Source: Anaerolineae bacterium
GTDB lineage: Bacteria; Chloroflexota; Anaerolineae; B4-G1; SLSP01
Length of the DNA stretch: 8,183 nucleotides
Direction: 5' to 3'
NCBI GenBank assembly: GCA_016934645.1
Contig: JAFGSL010000608.1
Span: forward strand, 1-8,183
Shown in pieces: positions 41 to 8,183 of the stretch. How positions within the stretch are numbered: the stretch's first letter is position 1; each line of letters opens with the position of its first letter. The position numbers were made by a program, and so were the translations under genes. The notes under the pieces are model-generated. The model saw only the letters and a list, made by a program, of their open reading frames with translations, had not been told where the DNA came from and made no database searches.

Positions 41-68
41 TCACATTTCACGCATCACGCTTCACGTG
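41..68. repeat. TCACGCA-type heptamer repeat overlapping the murE 3' end
   Basis: Four 7-bp units in phase: TCACATT, TCACGCA, TCACGCT, TCACGTG. The first unit is outside the gene. The other three contain the murE stop codon (TCA at 48-50, read TGA on the minus strand) and encode its last residues (HVKRDA). A related TCACGCA unit occurs at 7387-7393, also next to GTAATTC units, which suggests that the two heptamer families travel together in spacers. Confidence 0.75.
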
Positions 69-1625
69 AGTCGGCAACGTATCCAATGTTTCGCCGTGCA
101 GCGCCCGTCGCAGTGCCTCGCGGTCATCCCAGGGATACTCGACCATTCCGAAACACATGCTCTGCTCGTGCCCTTTACCACACGTGAGGACGATGTCGTT
201 GGGCTGCGCCAACCTGACAGCGTGCAAAATCGCCGCGCCGCGATCCGGCACACGCCAGAAGTCCACGCCTTCCACACGTGGGTAACGCATCACACCGCTT
301 GCCATTTCAGCAAGGATGTCATCCAGGGGTTCCGTGCGCGGATCTTCGGCGGTCAATACGATCAGGTCGGCCAATTCTCCGGCGACTTCGCCCATCATGC
401 GGCGCTTCTCGCGATCCCGCAATCCGGCAGAACCAAAGGTGACAATGACGCGCCCGCGGGCGCGTCCCTGTCCCTCCACCCACTGCCGTGCCGCGATCAG
501 CGCCACGCGCAGCGCGTTGGGCGTGTGGGCGAAATCCACAATCGCCGTGAAGGACTGTCCTTCATCAATGCGCTCCATGCGCCCCGGCACACCTTGCACC
601 GCCGCAATCCCTTCGACCACCGCGTCGAGTGGTGCTCTCAGCGCCAGCGCCGCCGACGCTGCCGCCAGGATGTTGCTTACGTTAAACGCGCCCACCAGCG
701 GCGAAGCCACTTCCACCTTTCCCCACGGACTGTGCAGCATCGCGCGGATACCCTGCGGCGAATAATCGATATCACGGGCGGCCACATCCACATCCGCCGC
801 ATCAATACCGTACACCACCTGCTGCTCCACAGAAATCGCACGGAGATAATCGAACGAACGGGGATCATCACGATTGAGCACAGCGACCTTCGGCACATCG
901 GGTTTGCGCGCAGCCGTCGCCAGGCCGCGGAAGAGCGTCGCTTTCGCCTCACGGTAGGCTTCCCATGTGCCGTGGGAAGTCACATGCTCGTGCGTGATGT
1001 TGGTGACGACCGCTACGTCAAAGTCACACCCGGCGAGGCGCTGTTGCGCCAGTCCCTCCGACGTCGTCTCCAAGACAGCGTGCGTCGCGCCCGCCGCGAC
1101 CATGTCGGCTAGATAACGCTGCACGTCGGCGGGGTGCGGTGTAGTGGTGTGCAGGCCCGTATCTAGATTCAGTGCGCCGATCCGCGCGTTGACTGTGCTG
1201 ATCATACCCGTCTCATGTCCGGCAGCGTGCAGGATCGCGTAAAGGAGGTTGGTCGTCGTTGTCTTGCCGTCGGTGCCAGTGACGCCAGTCAGCGCCAGGT
1301 GACGCGAGGGAAAACCGTGCCAGGTCGCGTGCAGCCATCCCAATGCTAGGCGGGCATCAGTCACGCGCAGATAGGGCAAACCAGATGGCAGATTCAAGGC
1401 AACGGCAGGTTCTTCACCGACAATGGCAGCCGCACCGGCAGCGACAGCCGCTGGAATGAAACGGTGACCGTCCACATGCACGCCACGCACCGCAACAAAC
1501 AGAAAGCCGGGCTGAACCTGCCGGGAATCGTCGGTGATCCCCACAATTGGTGTATCACCCGGCGTCGCACTACCATTAGTTTCCAGCACACCCGGCACAG
1601 CCATCATCAACTGACGAAGCGGCAT
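48..1625 (-). CDS. murE: MurE-type Mur ligase (UDP-MurNAc-tripeptide synthetase)
   Basis: ATP-dependent cytoplasmic ligase that adds the third, usually diamino, residue to UDP-MurNAc-L-Ala-D-Glu in peptidoglycan synthesis. Three Mur-ligase domains are visible: an N-terminal domain with DSRQVQPGFLFVAVRG (about residues 33-48), a central ATPase with P-loop TGTDGKTTT (about 117-125) and a likely carbamylated lysine in REAKATLF (K228), and a C-terminal domain with VPGRMERI, DFAHTPNALR, EDPR (427-430) and GKGHE (483-487). The length of 525 aa is normal to slightly long. I chose the second ATG because AGGAGG (1634-1639) sits 8 nt before it; the ATG at 1631 has only 2 nt and would give 527 aa. The usual DNPR specificity motif reads EDPR, and the usual EVSSHAL reads ETTSEGL, so the amino acid added (DAP, Lys, Orn) cannot be called. 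It follows the redox operon after a hairpin and is probably functionally unrelated to it. Confidence 0.9.
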   Translation of the reverse strand: MPLRQLMMAVPGVLETNGSATPGDTPIVGITDDSRQVQPGFLFVAVRGVHVDGHRFIPAAVAAGAAAIVGEEPAVALNLPSGLPYLRVTDARLALGWLHATWHGFPSRHLALTGVTGTDGKTTTTNLLYAILHAAGHETGMISTVNARIGALNLDTGLHTTTPHPADVQRYLADMVAAGATHAVLETTSEGLAQQRLAGCDFDVAVVTNITHEHVTSHGTWEAYREAKATLFRGLATAARKPDVPKVAVLNRDDPRSFDYLRAISVEQQVVYGIDAADVDVAARDIDYSPQGIRAMLHSPWGKVEVASPLVGAFNVSNILAAASAALALRAPLDAVVEGIAAVQGVPGRMERIDEGQSFTAIVDFAHTPNALRVALIAARQWVEGQGRARGRVIVTFGSAGLRDREKRRMMGEVAGELADLIVLTAEDPRTEPLDDILAEMASGVMRYPRVEGVDFWRVPDRGAAILHAVRLAQPNDIVLTCGKGHEQSMCFGMVEYPWDDREALRRALHGETLDTLPTHVKRDA

Positions 1626-1633
1626 TTCCATTC

Positions 1634-1716: not shown

Positions 1717-2685
1717 CTACTCAAGTTCCTTGACGCGTGACTTGCCACCCTTCAACGCAAGGATTAAGTCTCGACGACGTACGGCGCGCTTGCGGTCGAT
1801 TTCGACCTGGCTGGCCTTTTCATCAGCGAGCTTCGCCAGAGCCTCGAGCCAAGAGGCGCTCTCGACGGGCGTATGGCGCACGCGCCACCGCTCCACAAGC
1901 ACCGGTAGTTCGTCAGCATTTGTCATCCGCTGATGTGTCCGCGTGTAAATGACGCCCTGAGACTCGAAATGCACCTCATAGTCTTCCCATTCTGCCTTGA
2001 CCGGACAGATTTGCATACACGCGCCGCACTTGATACAGAAGTAGTCCGCATGCACCAATTCACCATCTTCGTTGATATGCAGCGCACGCGTCGGGCAGAC
2101 ATCGGCACAGGCAAAACAGCCCTCGACGCACAACTCCCGGCGCAGCAGCACTGTGCCCTGCCAAGGTTGATTCACTTCGAAAGCGCCGTTACTGGCAACC
2201 TCACACTGACGGCAGCGAATACAGTGCTCCTGATCCACTTTCATCGTGTCGTGTTCCGCATCGTAGCTGATGACGTCCGCAGAGCAGTTCTCGATGACGA
2301 AGTCCTTCAGGCTGAAGTCGAACGCATCCTTGTTGAACTTGGTGGACTTCATCAGCTTAGGGAACGCTTCATGCTCAATGACGGGATTGTATGGCTCACC
2401 ATTGAGCGTTAGCGTAATCGCACGCATCGGGCACATTTCCACACACATCCCACAGAAGACGCACTTGTCAGGATCGACATCCACCAGCAGCTTTGTTACC
2501 ATATGCCCATTCTCAACCACGCCATCAATGTGGCTGATGGCTTCCTTCGGGCACACCTTAGGTCCAATCTGGCAACCCACACAGCGGTCTAAATCCCAGG
2601 TCAAGACGTCATGGTGCGTAACCATCTTCCGCTCCAGCGTGAGCGATGTTTCAGTGCGCTGTTTCAAAGTAGTTCCACGTTTCAC
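1717..2685 (-). CDS. Polyferredoxin, 4Fe-4S binding protein with degenerate cluster sites
   Basis: Predicted soluble 322-aa iron-sulfur electron carrier, probably wiring the HdrABC complex. Residues 35-227 form three tandem two-cluster ferredoxin units. The motifs are: C35-C38-G41-C45, lacking the third Cys; C75-C78-C81-C85, complete; a remnant with only C134; C155-C158-C161 with S165 in place of the fourth Cys; C186-C190-C193-C197, with an extra residue after the first Cys; and C217-C220-C223-C227, complete. Under normal ferredoxin cross-ligation this gives four full [4Fe-4S] sites and one three-Cys site. Residues 245-322 are cysteine-free, charged and probably helical. The GTG start at 2685 was chosen for AAAGGAG 7 nt upstream; an ATG at 2625 (302 aa) with GGAG 6 nt upstream is an alternative. 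Extending to 2820 would overlap hdrB without a ribosome binding site. The gene is 55 nt after hdrB and probably cotranscribed. The overall style resembles polyferredoxins associated with Hdr or formylmethanofuran dehydrogenase; the exact family is not identified. Confidence 0.85.
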   Translation of the reverse strand: MKRGTTLKQRTETSLTLERKMVTHHDVLTWDLDRCVGCQIGPKVCPKEAISHIDGVVENGHMVTKLLVDVDPDKCVFCGMCVEMCPMRAITLTLNGEPYNPVIEHEAFPKLMKSTKFNKDAFDFSLKDFVIENCSADVISYDAEHDTMKVDQEHCIRCRQCEVASNGAFEVNQPWQGTVLLRRELCVEGCFACADVCPTRALHINEDGELVHADYFCIKCGACMQICPVKAEWEDYEVHFESQGVIYTRTHQRMTNADELPVLVERWRVRHTPVESASWLEALAKLADEKASQVEIDRKRAVRRRDLILALKGGKSRVKELE

Positions 2686-2692
2686 ACTCTGT

Positions 2693-2699
2693 CTCCTTT
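2693..2699 (-). promoter_or_regulatory. Ribosome binding site supporting the GTG start of the polyferredoxin
   Basis: AAAGGAG on the minus strand, 7 nt upstream of the GTG at 2685-2683. It lies in the 55-nt gap after hdrB. It is the main reason to prefer the GTG over the internal ATG at 2625. Confidence 0.6.
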
Positions 2700-2740
2700 G
2701 GAATAGTCCGGTCGTCGTTAATCCAAGAGTCGATAAATCC

Positions 2741-3616
2741 CTACGCCCTGATTCGCGTGACGACACTTGTCGTCGGAACAATGTGGCGTTGCAAACCCAA
2801 CTGTGAGGGATCCAGGCCAAGCGCCAGCCCCATCAGTTGCGTGAAGAACACCACCGGCAAGTCGAGAGCACGCCGCACAACTTTCTCAGCCTTCGATTGG
2901 TACAGGTCGAGTGCCATGTGGCACATCGGGCATGCCAGAGTAACCGCTTCCGCACCACGCCCCTTGGCTGACGCCAGCACATCGCCCGCCATACGTGCGG
3001 TCGTTCCCCCATGCGAAAGCGCCATCGCACCGCCGCAGCACTTAGCCTTGTAGTCATAATCTACCGGTTCGGCGCCCAGCGCTTTGACCAAGCGATCCAG
3101 CCCAATGGGTCGTTCTGCGCTATCGAACTCATCCGACGGACGGGTGAGCATACAGCCGTAATAGCTGGCGACTTTCAGACCGGTCAACGGGCGCACCACA
3201 CGCTTCTCCAGAGCATCCAGGCCGTAGTCCCGCAGAATGAGATACAGTGGATGCAGCACTTCGACTTTGCCCGAACAACTGAAAGCCTCTTCCAGTTCGT
3301 TATTCACACGGGTGCAGATTGTCTTGTCAGCTTCAGCGAGCTTGGCCGCACGGCGCAGGTTCTTGTAACACGCGCTGCACGGCGCGACGACAGCGTCATA
3401 GCCCTGTGCTTCCGCCAGCGCCAAGTTACGCAGCGAGAGCAGGAAACGCGAGTCGCTGTTGTAAATAGCGGAATGGGTCGCGCCGCAGCACGTCCACCCC
3501 TCCAGTTCGTGCAGTTCGATATCCAATGCGGCAAAGACGACACGCACAGACATATCGTATTCTTTTGCGGTGGATTCCAGGCTGCATCCGGGATAGTATG
3601 CGTAAGCTTTAGCCAT
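2741..3616 (-). CDS. hdrB: HdrB-like CCG-domain heterodisulfide reductase subunit B
   Basis: 291-aa catalytic-type subunit of an HdrABC complex. HdrB proteins carry two noncubane [4Fe-4S] clusters in two CCG domains, where methanogens reduce CoM-S-S-CoB; the bacterial substrate here is unknown. Both cysteine sets are complete: C11, C43-C44, C80-C83 (GWTCCGATHS and PCSACY) and C155, C193-C194, C229-C232 (KCCGGA and CPMC). This argues for a functional active site. Length is normal for the family. The start is the ATG at 3616 with GGAGGTG just upstream; a longer reading to 3682 would add about 22 unlikely residues inside hdrC. The start overlaps the hdrC stop by 8 nt, which suggests translational coupling. 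No signal peptide or membrane segment is seen, so it is cytoplasmic unless held by HdrC. HdrD or BamD-like use is possible, but the separate small HdrC makes HdrB the best name. Confidence 0.92.
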   Translation of the reverse strand: MAKAYAYYPGCSLESTAKEYDMSVRVVFAALDIELHELEGWTCCGATHSAIYNSDSRFLLSLRNLALAEAQGYDAVVAPCSACYKNLRRAAKLAEADKTICTRVNNELEEAFSCSGKVEVLHPLYLILRDYGLDALEKRVVRPLTGLKVASYYGCMLTRPSDEFDSAERPIGLDRLVKALGAEPVDYDYKAKCCGGAMALSHGGTTARMAGDVLASAKGRGAEAVTLACPMCHMALDLYQSKAEKVVRRALDLPVVFFTQLMGLALGLDPSQLGLQRHIVPTTSVVTRIRA

Positions 3617-4268
3617 GGAGCACCTCCTTCTTGCCACCCGAGAACAACTTGCCGATGCTGGCGAAAACGCCCAGAACCGCAATCATGATAGCAATCACGC
3701 GGTCGTCAAATTTCCTGCGAGGATCAGCCTCAACCGGCGGTATAACGCCGGTGTCCCGTAGTTTCTGGGATGCGGCGATGTTCGTAGGCGTGAAAGCCAC
3801 TTTACGCTTTAACAGCATCTTCAGACCCGGGCCGACCATCCCCAGCATACCTTTCACATCAAATGTGCGCAGGTAATAGCGCGTCAGTAGCTCCGGTTCG
3901 AACATCCGCCCGTGCTGCGCCAGTGTCACAGTGAACACCTGGCCAAATTGCGCCTCTTTGTCCTTCACATAGCCTTTTTGGATAGCAAGCCGGCGCAGTT
4001 CGGAGAACAAAACAGTAATTTCGATACCGCGCGGGCAGCGATTCATACAGGAATAGCACGAGACACAGCGCCAGATGTCCGGGCTGGAGAGGACTTCCTC
4101 CTCCATCGCGTTTTGGATCATGTACATAATACGGCGTGGCCCGTGGACCATATCCGGCAGCGCGGGGCACGAGGCGGAACACGTACCGCATTGATAACAT
4201 TCCAGCACGTCTTGGCCGCCGCGTAAGGCTAACACTTCAGTGAGAAAAGGATGCATTTCAGAAGTCAT
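3609..4268 (-). CDS. hdrC: HdrC-like 4Fe-4S subunit with a C-terminal hydrophobic segment
   Basis: 219-aa electron-transfer subunit linking HdrA to HdrB. Two complete [4Fe-4S] motifs are visible: C24-C27-C30-C34 (CYQCGTCSASCP) and C68-C71-C74-C78 (CVSCYSCMNRCP), with the usual helical region between and after them. The protein is longer than a minimal HdrC. Residues 191-209 (VIAIMIAVLGVFASIGKLF) form a hydrophobic stretch flanked by RRKFDDR and GGKK, which looks like a single membrane helix or amphipathic anchor; HdrC of soluble methanogen complexes lacks one as far as I recall. The ATG overlaps the hdrA stop by one nt (TAATG), preceded by a purine-rich GGGGGGAGA ribosome binding site. The last codons contain the hdrB ribosome binding site, so hdrC and hdrB should be translated together. 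Confidence 0.92.
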   Translation of the reverse strand: MTSEMHPFLTEVLALRGGQDVLECYQCGTCSASCPALPDMVHGPRRIMYMIQNAMEEEVLSSPDIWRCVSCYSCMNRCPRGIEITVLFSELRRLAIQKGYVKDKEAQFGQVFTVTLAQHGRMFEPELLTRYYLRTFDVKGMLGMVGPGLKMLLKRKVAFTPTNIAASQKLRDTGVIPPVEADPRRKFDDRVIAIMIAVLGVFASIGKLFSGGKKEVLHG

Positions 4269-6811
4269 TATTTCTCCCCCCGTTCATACGCCTGTTGGAT
4301 TTCGGTTTTGACACCTCGCAGACGCGCTTCGAAGATATCGAGCACGCGCGCGGCATCCGCGCCTTCACGGACACGCCGGAGTTGGCGCTCCAGTTGCGGC
4401 AGCATCTTTTCGTTCTCAGCATGCACGCCCTCAGGCCCCAAACCGGTGATCACCTCGCTCATCTCGGTCATAATACGCGCCCACTTCGCGCCCTCGGTGG
4501 CGGAAACCTCCTCGGTACGGAAGCGCTCTGGCGTCATTCCCATACGCTCCAACTGCTTCCGCAGCCGCTCCATGCGTACGTCGGCCTTTTGCCGCCCGGT
4601 AATGTAGTGACAGTCCTGCACGTGACATCCCGAGACCAGCACCGCCCCCGCCCCAAGCTTGAACGCCTCCATCACGAAGTCCGGATCGATACGCCCGGAG
4701 CACATCACCATGATGTTGCGAGTGTTGGCCGGATACTGGAAGTGGCTCACACCGGCATTGTCGGCGCCCAGGCCACTGCACCAACGGCAGGTGAAGGCCA
4801 GCACCTTCTCTTCAGGCTTGTCGGCGAGCAACGCGTGAACCTGCGCCAGGATTTGCCCATCGGTGAAGTGCCACTGCGTGATGGCATTAGCCGGACATTC
4901 GGCCACACATGTTCCGCACCCATGACACTTTGCCGGGATGATCTGGCTCGGCTGGCCCGTACCAGGATTGTTGATCACGGCCCCATACGGGCACGCCTGC
5001 GCGCACTGCGTACATTTGCCTTTGGGATTGGCATTGAGGCAGCGCGTCGGATCCACGTAGGCGACAATAGGGTCGATCTCCCATTTCCCGGCGTTGAGCA
5101 CGCGCGCGGCGCGACCAGCGGCCGCACTCCCCTGCGCCACACTCTGCGGGATGTCCTTCGGTCCCTGCGCCGACCCGGCCAGGTAGACGCCTTCGGTGGA
5201 CGAGTCAATCGGCTTGAGCTTGGGATGCGATTCCAGGAACCAACCGTGTGTGTCCAGCGGGACGGTAAGCGCGCGCGCCAGATCGGTCACGCCTTCCGAC
5301 GGGATTGCCGCCGTCGCCAGCCCCACCATCTCGAACTCGTACTCCATCTGCCGGTCCAATCCTGCGTTGTAGGTCTGCACGAAAAGGTTTTTCGTCACCG
5401 GATCCTCACGGATTTCGGCGGGCCGTCCCTGTACGAAATGGATGCCCGCCTGCCGCGCGCGTTCGTAAAATTCCTCGTAGGTCTTGCCCGGCGTGCGGAT
5501 GTCAATGCGGAAGATGGTGATGTCGATTTCCGGGTAGAGCCACTTGAGCAAAAGCGCGTTCTTGATGGTGTACATGCAGCAGAAACCGGAACAATACTCA
5601 TTGTAACGCTTGTCGCGCGAGCCGACGCACTGAATCAAACCAAGTGTTTGAGGCGTTTTACCGTCGGAGGGGCGAACAAATTCGCCCACCGTTGGGCCAC
5701 CGGCGCAGTGCAAGCGCTCGATTTCCATCATCGTCGAAACGTTGTCGAAAAGGCCGAAGCCGTACTCTTCCAACGGCGTGGGGTCCCACATATCCAGGCC
5801 CGTCGCCACGATGATCGTGCCAACATCCAGCGTCTCGATTTTCGGTTCATCGAAAAAGCTGATAGCCTGCAAACTGCCGCACGCCTCGACGCACTTGAAA
5901 CACTCAATACAGGCGTCCATGTCAATCGTGAAAATGGCCGGAACGGCTTGCACGAGCGGCACATAGATGGCCTTGCGTGGCCCCAGGCCCTCTTCGAACT
6001 CAAAATTGGGCACCGAAATGGGGCAAACGTCGGAGCAGAGGCCGCAGCCGGTGCAGCGATCTTCGAGCACGTAACGTGGCTTGCGCTCCACCTTGACCTT
6101 GAAGTTGCCGATGTAGCCCTCAACCTCTTTAACTTCAGAATAGGTCATCAGGTTGATGTACTTGCTTTTGCCCACATCTACCATCTTCGGCGCTTCGATG
6201 CAGATCGAGCAGTCCATCGTCGGGAAAGTTTTGTCCAGTTGCGCCATCCGCCCGCCAATGGAGGAAGATTTGTCTACCAGATAGGTGGGAATGTGCATAT
6301 CGGCCAGGTCCAGCGCCGCGCTGATTCCGGCGATACCACCGCCAATCACCAGAGCTTTACGTGTCACCGGGACTTCGAACATATCTAACGGACGCACAAA
6401 ACTGACCTTCGCCACTGCCGACGAGACAATTTCCTTCGCCTTGAGCGTCGCCGCCGGCTTCTCGTGGGTGTGGACCCACGAGGAATGCTCACGGATGTTC
6501 GCCATCTCAAAGAAAAAAGGATTGACACCCTCATCGGCAAGCACCGCCCGGAAGGTTGGCTCGTGCATCGATACCGTACACGCCCCCACTACCAGGCGAT
6601 TCAGCTTGTACTGCCGGATGTCCTGCTTGATCATGCTCTGACCAGGATCGGAGCACATATACTTGTGCTCCTTCGCCACCACCACGTTGGGCAGCGTCGC
6701 GGCGTATTCCACCACATCCGGCACCGTCACCGTACTGGCGATATTCGACCCGCAGTGACAGATGTAAACGCCGATGCGCAGTTCTTCGTTGTTGTTGTCG
6801 TTTTCGGTCAT
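4268..6811 (-). CDS. hdrA: HdrA-like FAD iron-sulfur subunit fused to an MvhD domain
   Basis: 847-aa flavoprotein core of an HdrABC complex, the family that performs flavin-based electron bifurcation. Domains in order: N-terminal cluster domain (C18, C20, C53, C78; IREHSSWVH at 106-114); thioredoxin-reductase-like FAD domain with GGGIAG (157-162); inserted two-cluster ferredoxin (C253/256/259/263 and C301/304/307/311); the HdrA-specific C395, C407, C411-C412 motif next to the flavin, with K417 placed like the conserved flavin-contacting lysine I recall from methanogen HdrA; C-terminal ferredoxin (C591-x8-C600-x2-C603-x3-C607 and C629/632/635/639); MvhD domain (about 670-793) with C675, C678, C704, C729 and C734; and a charged helical tail (about 796-847). 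MvhD normally passes electrons from hydrogenase or another donor into HdrA, so the fusion fixes that wire. The start has GGGAG 4 nt upstream, 9 nt after the ferredoxin stop. Odd points are S110 where HdrA usually has Cys and the enlarged C591-x8-C600 spacing. Confidence 0.95.
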   Translation of the reverse strand: MTENDNNNEELRIGVYICHCGSNIASTVTVPDVVEYAATLPNVVVAKEHKYMCSDPGQSMIKQDIRQYKLNRLVVGACTVSMHEPTFRAVLADEGVNPFFFEMANIREHSSWVHTHEKPAATLKAKEIVSSAVAKVSFVRPLDMFEVPVTRKALVIGGGIAGISAALDLADMHIPTYLVDKSSSIGGRMAQLDKTFPTMDCSICIEAPKMVDVGKSKYINLMTYSEVKEVEGYIGNFKVKVERKPRYVLEDRCTGCGLCSDVCPISVPNFEFEEGLGPRKAIYVPLVQAVPAIFTIDMDACIECFKCVEACGSLQAISFFDEPKIETLDVGTIIVATGLDMWDPTPLEEYGFGLFDNVSTMMEIERLHCAGGPTVGEFVRPSDGKTPQTLGLIQCVGSRDKRYNEYCSGFCCMYTIKNALLLKWLYPEIDITIFRIDIRTPGKTYEEFYERARQAGIHFVQGRPAEIREDPVTKNLFVQTYNAGLDRQMEYEFEMVGLATAAIPSEGVTDLARALTVPLDTHGWFLESHPKLKPIDSSTEGVYLAGSAQGPKDIPQSVAQGSAAAGRAARVLNAGKWEIDPIVAYVDPTRCLNANPKGKCTQCAQACPYGAVINNPGTGQPSQIIPAKCHGCGTCVAECPANAITQWHFTDGQILAQVHALLADKPEEKVLAFTCRWCSGLGADNAGVSHFQYPANTRNIMVMCSGRIDPDFVMEAFKLGAGAVLVSGCHVQDCHYITGRQKADVRMERLRKQLERMGMTPERFRTEEVSATEGAKWARIMTEMSEVITGLGPEGVHAENEKMLPQLERQLRRVREGADAARVLDIFEARLRGVKTEIQQAYERGEK

Positions 6812-6820
6812 AAAGCTCCC

Positions 6821-7315
6821 TTATCGTGGCCCGTGTACCTCTTCGTGAATGAGCTTATGGCGCGCCTTTTGCGCGCGTTGGTCGGGTGTCGTCAATTCGA
6901 GCGCGTCCTTCGGACACCACTTCACGCACTGCGGACCATCTTCCTCGTCCTGGCATTGATCGCAAACCTCGGCCATCTTAGTCGTCGGGTTGATGGAGAT
7001 TGCGCCAAAGTCGCATGCTTCAATACACCAGGCACAGCCATCGCAGCGCTCCGCGTCCACGTTGATGAGGCCAGTCTCTGGGTCCTGCGTCAGCGCGTCG
7101 CGTGTACAGGCGATGACACAGGGCGCATCCTCACACGTGCGGCAAGCCACCGCCGTTATCAAAATTTCGTCCACGCGCACGGTACGGATGCGACTGCGAT
7201 AGGTGTTGTACTCACCGGTTTTGGTATAGGAGCAGATGTACTCGCACAACTGGCACCCGATACATTTCGTTGCATCACACGCAATGTAGGCATATTTGGA
7301 TGTTGAAGTTACCAT
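6821..7315 (-). CDS. Four-cluster ferredoxin, AOR/BamC-type electron-transfer subunit
   Basis: 164-aa soluble ferredoxin of the DMSO-reductase-B/HycB-like type. Sixteen cysteines fall in four motifs: C18-C21-C24-C28; C58-C61-x4-C66-x3-C70; C91-C94-C97-C101; and C118-C121-x8-C130-x3-C134, enough for four [4Fe-4S] clusters. C13 is additional. This arrangement is that of electron-transfer subunits that partner AOR-family enzymes (AorA, BamC), and it lies directly downstream of the AOR gene. Its likely role is to carry electrons between the tungsten or molybdenum enzyme and HdrA, encoded 9 nt downstream. The ATG at 7315 is preceded by AAGGAG with 6-nt spacing, placed right at the edge of the heptamer repeat array. 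No twin-arginine or other signal peptide is seen, so it is cytoplasmic. I cannot separate BamC from AorA by reading alone. Confidence 0.9.
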   Translation of the reverse strand: MVTSTSKYAYIACDATKCIGCQLCEYICSYTKTGEYNTYRSRIRTVRVDEILITAVACRTCEDAPCVIACTRDALTQDPETGLINVDAERCDGCAWCIEACDFGAISINPTTKMAEVCDQCQDEEDGPQCVKWCPKDALELTTPDQRAQKARHKLIHEEVHGPR

Positions 7316-7327
7316 ACTATTCTCCTT

Positions 7328-7376
7328 GAATTACGAATAGCGAAAAGTGAATTGCGAATTACGAATTACGAATTAC
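7328..7376. repeat. GAATTAC heptamer array, seven in-phase units
   Basis: Seven consecutive 7-bp units: GAATTAC, GAATAGC, GAAAAGT, GAATTGC, then three perfect GAATTAC. This is the reverse complement of the GTAATTC array at 3-30. It occupies nearly half of the 103-nt spacer between the AOR gene and its ferredoxin partner, ending at the ferredoxin ribosome binding site. Its role is unknown; it could be a spacer element, a protein-binding site or a transcript structure. Confidence 0.9.
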
Positions 7377-7417
7377 GGACACGCAGTCACGCAACTCGTA
7401 ATTCGCGATTCGTAATT
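7357..7417. repeat. Imperfect 21-bp inverted repeat (hairpin) in the AOR-ferredoxin spacer
   Basis: The arm 7357-7377 pairs with 7397-7417 over 21 bp with two mismatches and a 19-nt loop. The arms consist of GAATTAC units facing GTAATTC, GCGATTC and GTAATT units. It starts immediately after the AOR stop codon (TAA at 7421-7419 on the minus strand). The stem is AT-rich and no strong U-tract follows on the minus strand, so it is a weak terminator candidate. It could act as an mRNA stabiliser or processing site that sets different levels for AOR and the downstream genes. Confidence 0.65.
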
Positions 7418-7418
7418 T

Positions 7419-8183
7419 TTACACGCCGATTTCCTCCGCCACGTCCTCCATCCCCAGCTCGATCAGCTTTGCTTTGGGGATCAGGCCCTCCGGTGTCCAG
7501 CCTTTGGCTTCGTAGTAGAGGTCTTTGAGGTATTCCAGTTCCTCTTCAGTGACGACGTATCCGGCGGAAGCGCCTTCCTTGAGCGGATCGTGATGCCAGC
7601 GGTAGGGCAAATGATCGTCTGCACGCGTCCAGCCCTCGCGGATGTTGAACGCTTTCTTGATAGTATGCGCCCGCACACCGATAAGGTCCACGGCGTCGTA
7701 GTCGAAATTCCAGCCGGTGGTGGCATTGATGAGCGCCGCGATGGCCGGCCATGCACCGGCACGGTCGGCTTTACCGGTGAAGCAACGCCGGATGAATTTG
7801 CACAGCGGCAGCGTGTCGTAGACGGCGGCGTACTCCTCGGTGCTGGCAGCTAACCGACCGCGCGTCTCATCCACGCTGAAGCGATCCACCTCGCCCTGAA
7901 TATCGGGGTCGTAAGCCGCCGAACGGTTGTGACAGCCACCGCGCGTTCCCGCTGCCAGCCCAACAGCAAAGGTCTTGAGACCCCGCGCGTCGTAGCCAGG
8001 ATTTTCCAAACCCTTGATGTTCATCGCCCACTTGTACGACTCCGTACCGCGGTCTGCATCGGTGCGCTGGCTGGCGATACGCGTCCCCTCGGACAACAAG
8101 TCGCCGATACCCTCGCGGTCGCGGATCATTTCTGCCAACGCGACGGCAGCCTCGCCATTGCCGAAGTTCGGCTCGAAGCCATC
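7419..8183 (-). CDS. Aldehyde:ferredoxin oxidoreductase (AOR/BamB) family enzyme, C-terminal part
   Basis: The last 254 residues of an AOR-superfamily tungsten- or molybdenum-bis-pterin enzyme. The frame is open to the window edge, so the N-terminus and the first cluster motif are not visible. Recognisable family segments, numbered within the visible part: NFGNGEA (6-12), REGIGDLLSEG (23-33), KGLENPGYDARGLK (57-70), GTRGGCHNRS (79-88), DTLPLCKF (123-130), and FNIREGWTRADDHLP near the C-terminus. C128 corresponds to the last [4Fe-4S] ligand of AOR; the preceding DxxGLC pterin motif has Pro instead of Gly. AOR enzymes oxidise aldehydes to acids with ferredoxin, or run the reverse; the BamB branch reduces benzoyl-CoA. 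The neighbouring BamC-like ferredoxin and Hdr/MvhD genes make a Bam-like multi-subunit complex plausible, but I cannot assign a substrate or choose W over Mo. The TTG at 8138 is not a start: the protein continues upstream in frame with typical family sequence. Confidence 0.9.
   Translation of the reverse strand, partial: DGFEPNFGNGEAAVALAEMIRDREGIGDLLSEGTRIASQRTDADRGTESYKWAMNIKGLENPGYDARGLKTFAVGLAAGTRGGCHNRSAAYDPDIQGEVDRFSVDETRGRLAASTEEYAAVYDTLPLCKFIRRCFTGKADRAGAWPAIAALINATTGWNFDYDAVDLIGVRAHTIKKAFNIREGWTRADDHLPYRWHHDPLKEGASAGYVVTEEELEYLKDLYYEAKGWTPEGLIPKAKLIELGMEDVAEEIGV

Follow-up and report, generated by a model that had tools for sequence, protein, structure and literature searches.

An AOR-Hdr gene module of Anaerolineae with an exchangeable outlet: a putative Hdr-linked aldehyde oxidoreductase

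Introduction

One of the closest described counterparts of the gene module discussed here is the class IV bifurcating tungsten oxidoreductase (WOR) WorLSABC of A. mobile and E. limosum. The module lies on an 8,183-nt stretch of DNA from an Anaerolineae bacterium (assembly GCA_016934645.1, contig JAFGSL010000608.1; this whole stretch is the window) and comprises genes for an aldehyde oxidoreductase (AOR) family protein, an iron-sulfur (FeS) subunit, HdrA, HdrC, HdrB and a polyferredoxin (pFd). In both systems, an AOR-type large subunit and a four-cluster small subunit would sit on an electron-splitting module serving ferredoxin and a second carrier (PMC13328260, which distinguishes 92 WOR clades; published systems are described here from excerpts of the cited papers), the electron splitting by the window module being a proposal made from its genes alone. 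WorLSABC splits electrons through the NuoEFG-like WorABC, whereas the window module would do so through HdrA and with an exchangeable second carrier (PMC13328260). For class IV WORs, ferredoxin reduction at low aldehyde is described as needing a second, exergonic acceptor (PMC13328260), an argument that would apply to the AOR-Hdr module too.

The benzoyl-CoA reductase system BamBCDEFGHI likewise joins AOR-like and Fe-S subunits to HdrA-, MvhD- and HdrD-like parts, but the module differs from it in its aldehyde-type AOR and FeS subunits, the lack of BamGHI, another gene order and the lack of visible aromatic genes (PMC13328260, PMC9304861). HdrA2B2C2 of Methanosarcina acetivorans has an HdrA fused to MvhD and separate HdrB and HdrC, as the module does, and uses ferredoxin/F420H2 and CoM-S-S-CoB (PMC5296606), whereas the window module is linked to AOR and its searched relatives carry no F420 or ComA marker. 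Judged by its anatomy, the module would work like a bifurcating WOR without WorABC, or like an HdrA2-type HdrABC without signs of the known HdrA2B2C2 substrates. In MvhAGD-HdrABC, Flx-Hdr (an NAD(P)-linked partner system), Hdr-formate dehydrogenase and MetVF-HdrABC-MvhD, as far as the excerpts describe them, the partners of HdrA are redox enzymes, among them hydrogenase and enzymes for NAD(P) and formate. The module differs in having AOR in its operon and a single slot in which HdrB alternates with three such partners.

The latter two of these systems have been reported for Chloroflexi (PMC5736913), and in methanogens MvhD/VhuD has a central part in connecting HdrA to hydrogenase or formate dehydrogenase (PMC13188914). 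Selenocysteine-containing HdrA, with UGA at the CxxU position (PMC13188914, PMC12054007, PMC11291895), has its like in relatives of the module; the window HdrA is unlike it in carrying Cys, a state that goes with HdrB and with the lack of SelA. The AORs of an Anaerolineaceae genome were proposed to oxidise amino-acid-derived aldehydes, with no mention of Hdr in the excerpt (PMC5481317). No description of an AOR-Hdr module was found in excerpts of the openly licensed literature; Appel et al. 2021, cited there on HdrA(BC) modules, may cover part of the present findings.

Results and discussion

The module and its conservation

We put at roughly 55% the probability that the module is an Anaerolineae aldehyde oxidoreductase of the tungsten type that is linked to Hdr, with HdrA splitting electrons and an exchangeable outlet, which in the window is HdrB. 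Its gene order is conserved among relatives, outlets have been exchanged between colinear flanks, and HdrA is split into UGA and Cys types along with the presence and absence of SelA. The features are as follows, in coordinates of the whole window.

7419..8183, minus strand: AOR (WorL-like) large subunit, C-terminal 254 aa (AFOR_C, 208.8 bits); the 5' part lies beyond the window
7316..7418, no strand: intergenic gap between AOR and FeS, containing short AATTCG-type repeats (sequence and consensus scan)
6821..7315, minus strand: FeS (WorS-like) subunit, 164 aa (Pfam Fer4 families, Cys positions; best PDB match 9mqx_E)
4268..6811, minus strand: HdrA with C-terminal MvhD domain (HdrA2-like), 847 aa (FlpD, 149 bits; NF040770; 5odc_A)
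4436..4804, minus strand: MvhD (FlpD) domain of HdrA, residues 670-792 (Pfam); putative electron entry from AOR-FeS
6200..6202, minus strand: Cys204 codon of HdrA (DCSIC); UGA at the same position in all typed non-HdrB relatives
3609..4268, minus strand: HdrC, 219 aa, two [4Fe-4S] Cys sets (Pfam Fer4, Cys positions)
2741..3616, minus strand: HdrB, 291 aa from ATG, two intact CCG motifs (CCG, 91.5 bits); outlet of the window variant
1717..2685, minus strand: pFd, 322 aa from GTG, 19 Cys (Pfam Fer4); last module gene, position conserved in relatives
48..1631, minus strand: MurE, neighbour outside the module (profile match)

The mechanical open reading frame (ORF) starts lie at 3682 for HdrB (ATG at 3616) and at 2820 for pFd (GTG at 2685). 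AOR and FeS are separated by 103 nt and FeS and HdrA by 9 nt, HdrA and HdrC overlap by 1 nt and HdrC and HdrB by 8 nt, and 55 nt lie between HdrB and pFd. An earlier note, made from the window sequence, had named this gene set on one strand and the 9-nt, overlapping and 55-nt junctions of its Hdr half; the coordinates bear out both, the AOR being present as its 3' part only. A crude consensus scan listed no terminator-like or sigma-70-like site in the AOR/FeS gap (7316-7418), which is made up of short AATTCG/GTAATTC-type repeats.

A single scan of GTDB species genomes with the window AOR fragment returned 40 loci, one titled Pseudomonadota (L001; L and G numbers denote loci and genomes of this survey) and the others bearing Chloroflexota-type names, among which we take Thermoflexus, Brevefilum and Ornatilinea to be Chloroflexota. 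With a full-length relative as query, 12 of 301 sampled phylum genomes matched at E<=1e-140 and 55 of 396 class genomes at E<=1e-160, matches that reach down to 43% and 47% AOR identity and that are in part not of the module type. Removal of 8 duplicates from 91 loci with AOR left 83, including the window: 46 were typed, 8 lack HdrA and 29 are untyped ('trunc'), mostly cut by a contig end, a label that also covers three loci (L001, L010, L107) with room but no HdrA adjoining FeS. The 5' side of the AOR is known from relatives only, the window ending inside the gene.

At AOR identities of at least 53%, FeS follows AOR within 1 kb in 62/62 loci, and 54/57 have their HdrA no more than 2 kb from AOR; below 53% the counts fall to 5/11 and 0/9, respectively. 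AOR-FeS-HdrA-HdrC-[outlet]-pFd is a conserved module of Anaerolineae, and its arrangement is not due to chance because the same order recurs in many genomes. The link between AOR and hdr genes drawn in the earlier note, which had proposed to survey gene order around close homologs, is thereby upheld, AOR homologs without adjoining hdr genes, which it would have counted as evidence against the link, being the rule only outside the clade.

The exchangeable outlet

In the slot flanked by HdrC and pFd, 14 of the 46 typable loci, the window among them, hold HdrB, 16 a NiFe hydrogenase (MvhG-MvhA) and 13 an NAD(P) module, in which HydB-like and HydG-like proteins are joined by an Fe-S protein; one locus each has a molybdopterin formate-dehydrogenase-like enzyme (L017), hydrogenase plus NAD module (L121) or no outlet (L031). 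The NAD type occurs in a cultured organism, Ornatilinea apprima P3M-1 (L032). Counting L121, whose slot (L121:13654-17991, module orientation) holds both hydrogenase and NAD-type genes, a NiFe hydrogenase is present in 17 of the 46; the RICGVC and DPCIGC motifs are retained in the hydrogenase of L018. By its ORF list and Pfam matches the window copy has neither NiFe hydrogenase nor NAD module, just as the earlier note had it, but sister loci hold such partners in the same slot.

The distribution of outlets requires 12 changes of type on the AOR tree, 11 on the HdrA tree and 12 on the pFd tree, where five states need a minimum of 4. L009 (NAD type) and L011 (hydrogenase type) are 92% identical in AOR, 91% in HdrA and 96% in pFd. 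At the DNA level, an alignment of 84% identity runs from a point upstream of AOR to within HdrC, 3.6 kb without any alignment follow, and pFd is covered again at 93%. The same colinear-flank pattern, with a 3.75-kb unaligned gap, is found for L118 and L125. Sister loci with 91-92% identical AORs hence bear different outlets between colinear flanks, which we read as in-place exchange of an outlet cassette. The module looks like a plug-and-socket energy device, since the outlet in the same slot differs among related bacteria.

FlpD is kept on HdrA in the hydrogenase and formate types checked, and for NAD-type HdrA the MvhD region was read from tblastn coverage, not from Pfam. In L018 a second FlpD/MvhD is fused to HdrC beside that of HdrA, which suggests two docking sites, and in L009 MvhD is a separate gene.

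The selenium split

HdrA carries UGA, in the context ...MDCSI-UGA-ILAPKMVDA, in 32/32 typed non-HdrB modules and Cys in 14/14 HdrB modules; 12 untyped HdrA rows divide into 10 UGA and 2 Cys, bringing UGA to 42 of 58 rows. A hairpin core within 60 nt after the UGA was counted in 42/42 UGA rows and 0/16 Cys rows, a pattern count that includes the window, which the fold comparison of the region excluded. HdrA of the UGA-type relatives thus has the UGA at CxxU, the hairpin and the SelA of a selenoprotein, whereas the window HdrA, with Cys at this position, is not one.

Full-length SelA is present in 33 of 35 UGA-type genomes (10/10 and 23/25), one of the other two having a partial SelA at a contig end (G322) and one having none. 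Among 13 Cys-type genomes, for which completeness was not given (12 with HdrB seen; G668 counted as Cys type, its contig ending before the outlet), 9 gave no SelA match and 4 a weak one, and none was found in two more genomes that belong to the HdrB lineage by AOR and have no visible HdrA. Similar weak SelA-family matches accompany full SelA in some UGA-type genomes. The Fisher value of the split is 7e-11, ignoring kinship.

On the AOR tree, a separation of UGA and Cys types is not rejected (p 0.87), whereas with outgroup a UGA clade excluding the HdrB types is (approximately unbiased (AU) test, p 4e-5). The HdrA tree keeps the HdrB types separate from every UGA type. Because the HdrB types form one clade, HdrB, Cys and the lack of SelA count as one event, and one replacement of the HdrA-HdrC-outlet block appears the simplest history. 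On the UGA/Cys and SelA splits observed, the HdrB type is the selenium-free version of the module.

AOR and FeS subunits

Full-length relatives of the window AOR have about 630 aa, and L005, 94% identical over the window's part, served as full-length stand-in. Its best PDB match is 1aor (364 bits), followed by 9mqx_D, while the benzoyl-CoA reductase 4z3w_A ranks seventh of nine with 195 bits. Similarly, the window FeS subunit matches 9mqx_E best (85 bits), compared to 40 bits for the partner subunit of 4z3w, and 16 of its 17 Cys fit four [4Fe-4S] sets in our grouping. The AFOR_C domain in the window and the matches of L005 to solved AORs place the large subunit in the AOR/WOR family. All residues that we take to form the 1aor active site (Cys288/291/295/494, Glu313, His448) are kept in the L005-1aor alignment, the first three Cys and Glu313 falling outside the window's part of the AOR. 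The enzyme is probably of the tungsten type, with tungsten the likelier metal over molybdenum. Neither BamGHI-like genes (ORF list and Pfam) nor NuoEFG-like (WorABC) genes (Pfam) were found in the window, HdrA-HdrC-HdrB holding the slot of the latter instead.

Hdr proteins and proposed mechanism

HdrA scores 1009.6 bits against the HdrA2 model NF040770 (under its cut-off of 1100) and 782 bits against 5odc_A, and combines the FAD fold with Fer4 and a fused FlpD (MvhD) at residues 670-792. HdrC has two sets of four Cys, fitting two [4Fe-4S], and HdrB has Pfam CCG twice (C11/43/44/80/83 and C155/193/194/229/232), as in HdrABC and HdrA2B2C2. The SdhE model gives HdrB 193.6 bits and the HdrB model 183.6 bits, both under cut-off, and 5odc_B matches with 152 bits. 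Both CCG motifs are kept in HdrB of 13/14 HdrB-type loci, the 14th (L095) being cut by a contig end.

In the proposed mechanism, AOR would oxidise an aldehyde and the four-cluster FeS subunit would relay the electrons to the MvhD domain of HdrA, on which AOR-FeS presumably docks. The HdrA flavin would then divide them between a low-potential branch to ferredoxin, probably via pFd, and a higher-potential branch from HdrA through HdrC to the outlet, which would dock on HdrC with an MvhD of its own where needed. The outlet would reduce H+ (MvhGA), NAD(P)+ (HydBG/Flx-like) or CO2 to formate (Fdh) in relatives, and a disulfide or quinone through HdrB in the window. The HdrB variant may have arisen once, in a SelA-less lineage, by a Cys-type HdrA-HdrC-HdrB block taking the place of a UGA-type core and outlet. 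A physical complex, true bifurcation and the oxidative direction are likewise proposed from the genes.

As for the acceptor of HdrB, DsrC was found in 0/18 relatives' genomes (8 of HdrB type), ComA in 0/25 (a search covering this one CoM route, in relatives and not in the window's own genome) and CofH above cut-off in 0/25 (13 of Cys type), with one sub-threshold match of 19.4 bits in G012. The ComA result makes CoM-S-S-CoB an unlikely substrate. DsrC, ComA-made CoM and F420 were rejected as partners, their markers missing from the relatives searched, and a disulfide of another kind or a quinone remain as candidates. The earlier note had left the acceptor of HdrB unnamed, and so it stands.

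Alternative explanations

A class II benzoyl-CoA-reductase-like enzyme acting on aryl-CoA, a branch that the earlier note had kept in view, shares its part types with the module (AOR-like, FeS, HdrA/MvhD-like and CCG proteins). Both AOR and FeS resemble aldehyde enzymes more than they do the 4z3w subunits, however, the FeS subunit has four cluster sets compared to the three given for BamC in the excerpt (PMC13328260), and the window has no NuoEFG-like genes; such an enzyme is very improbable, and Bam membership was rejected on the similarity ranks and the absence of BamGHI subunits from the window. It is unlikely, though well worth considering, that HdrB in the same complex is SdhE-like and feeds membrane quinone, the HdrB type being the respiratory version of a fermentative device. 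The slightly higher SdhE score, the lack of a known soluble partner after the DsrC, ComA and CofH searches and the Nuo membrane genes found behind pFd in part of the HdrB-type loci would fit this, but the two scores are far under their cut-offs and differ little, MurE and not Nuo follows pFd in the window, and the module shows no membrane subunit. Sequential use without a complex, in which AOR-FeS would reduce ferredoxin or pFd and the Hdr part, acting on its own, would re-oxidise it to the outlet, appears rather improbable. AOR-FeS can stand alone, because outgroup loci (L051, L128, L129, L130) hold it without HdrA, and in L010 the AOR/FeS pair is apart from HdrA, but order and adjacency are otherwise kept in nearly all loci of the clade and an MvhD on HdrA usually serves enzyme docking. 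Still less probable is the reverse direction, in which the Hdr part would give low-potential electrons and AOR would reduce carboxylic acid to aldehyde. AOR-family chemistry is reversible, which would allow this direction. Bam is also described as powering a reduction with an HdrA module (PMC9304861), but the hydrogenase, NAD and formate types have no HdrB, and a high-potential acceptor that could drive the reaction is not obvious in them.

Several points weigh against the Hdr-linked, electron-splitting aldehyde oxidoreductase itself. HdrA need not split electrons, since a low-potential aldehyde donor can reduce ferredoxin without bifurcation. In the three exceptional loci of the clade HdrA does not adjoin AOR-FeS: it lies 8.6 kb off behind unrelated genes in L010, and L001 and L107 show none. 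G498 has a UGA-type HdrA and no SelA match, and the weak SelA-family matches in the Cys-type genomes G010, G591, G536 and G668 (42-48 bits) are formally above the Pfam cut-off of 22.8. The trees are quick ones with SH-aLRT support only, and in the test of block replacement the grouping of HdrB-type HdrA with its AOR relatives was rejected only moderately (AU p 0.021). The selenium split is, moreover, a single evolutionary event, which leaves its cause and the order of its steps open.

Neighbouring genes and variants

MurE follows pFd in 9/40 loci with room, among HdrB, NAD, hydrogenase and formate types. In an HdrB-type subgroup (L131:6676-15966; L006, L007, L012, L022), NuoA, H and J and three antiporter-type genes come after pFd, in L131 exactly between pFd and MurE with NuoC on another contig. 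NuoC was found in 10/12 genomes and is on a separate contig from the post-pFd Nuo genes in G004, G007, G010 and G017, and a supercomplex of the module with Nuo was rejected on this ground.

A MoaD/ThiS-like gene lies upstream of AOR in 28/45, 16/17 and 4/12 loci of three identity bands (L031, 73% after rounding, counted in the lower band). The other upstream genes vary, so the neighbours give no substrate hint. A Brevefilum-like group (L016, L019, L024, L026, L027, L029, L034, L040) has its MoaD-like gene not adjoining AOR and an ECF-type transporter set and a squalene-cyclase-like gene upstream. Near relatives of the window carry extra small same-strand genes at module junctions (L003:11395-12109 and 16771-17210; L004:9356-10182; L005:11338-12031 and 13551-14162), with Pfam matches to DUF4160 (L003, L004), DUF2442 (L004) and HicB-like and HicA+HicB (L005), i.e. 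toxin-antitoxin-like pairs; 4/10 scanned proteins had no Pfam match, and the window's own junctions carry no such genes.

In L010:11524-19292, FeS is followed by unrelated genes such as PIG-L and one for a 945-aa protein, with HdrA later, and in L001:2979-5901 by DUF6036 and Methylase_S-like genes where HdrA is expected. L053:6479-13307, with an AOR at 46% and no HdrA, has 3.4 kb downstream a gene that resembles formate dehydrogenase and shares 48% identity with its counterpart in L017. The HdrA of L127 has a second in-frame stop and the pFd of L118 one in-frame stop. The number of PF01314 matches in the 20 genomes behind the loci ranges from 1 (G008, G018 and G019) to 13 per genome, fragments included, and in 6/13 genomes nothing but the module HdrA matches at E<=1e-90.

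Conclusions

The module is real, conserved and richer than is visible from one window, its proposed mechanism being constrained by its anatomy. From the earlier note, the AOR-hdr link, the lack of a hydrogenase or NAD partner in the window copy and the view of HdrB's acceptor stood, and the Bam/aryl-CoA branch fell. Tentatively, and at somewhat less than even odds, the module may represent a further tungsten oxidoreductase class, built on an Hdr socket (AOR-FeS-HdrA-HdrC-pFd) whose outlet, for H2, NAD(P)H, formate or a disulfide/quinone, is swapped in place. On this view, a Cys-type HdrA-HdrC-HdrB block would have taken over from the whole UGA-type HdrA core and outlet when one lineage lost selenocysteine, and a fermentative aldehyde oxidase may thereby have become respiratory or thiol-linked. 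The module would add an Hdr-based design to the bifurcating aldehyde enzymes, for which a NuoEFG-based one is known, and it raises the question of the substrate of HdrB in bacteria without the searched CoM, F420 and DsrC markers. The missing selenocysteine machinery would be linked to replacement of an energy-conserving core, and the natural, near-isogenic variants of this putative bifurcating enzyme, differing in their outlet, would allow the rules of coupling by HdrA to be tested.

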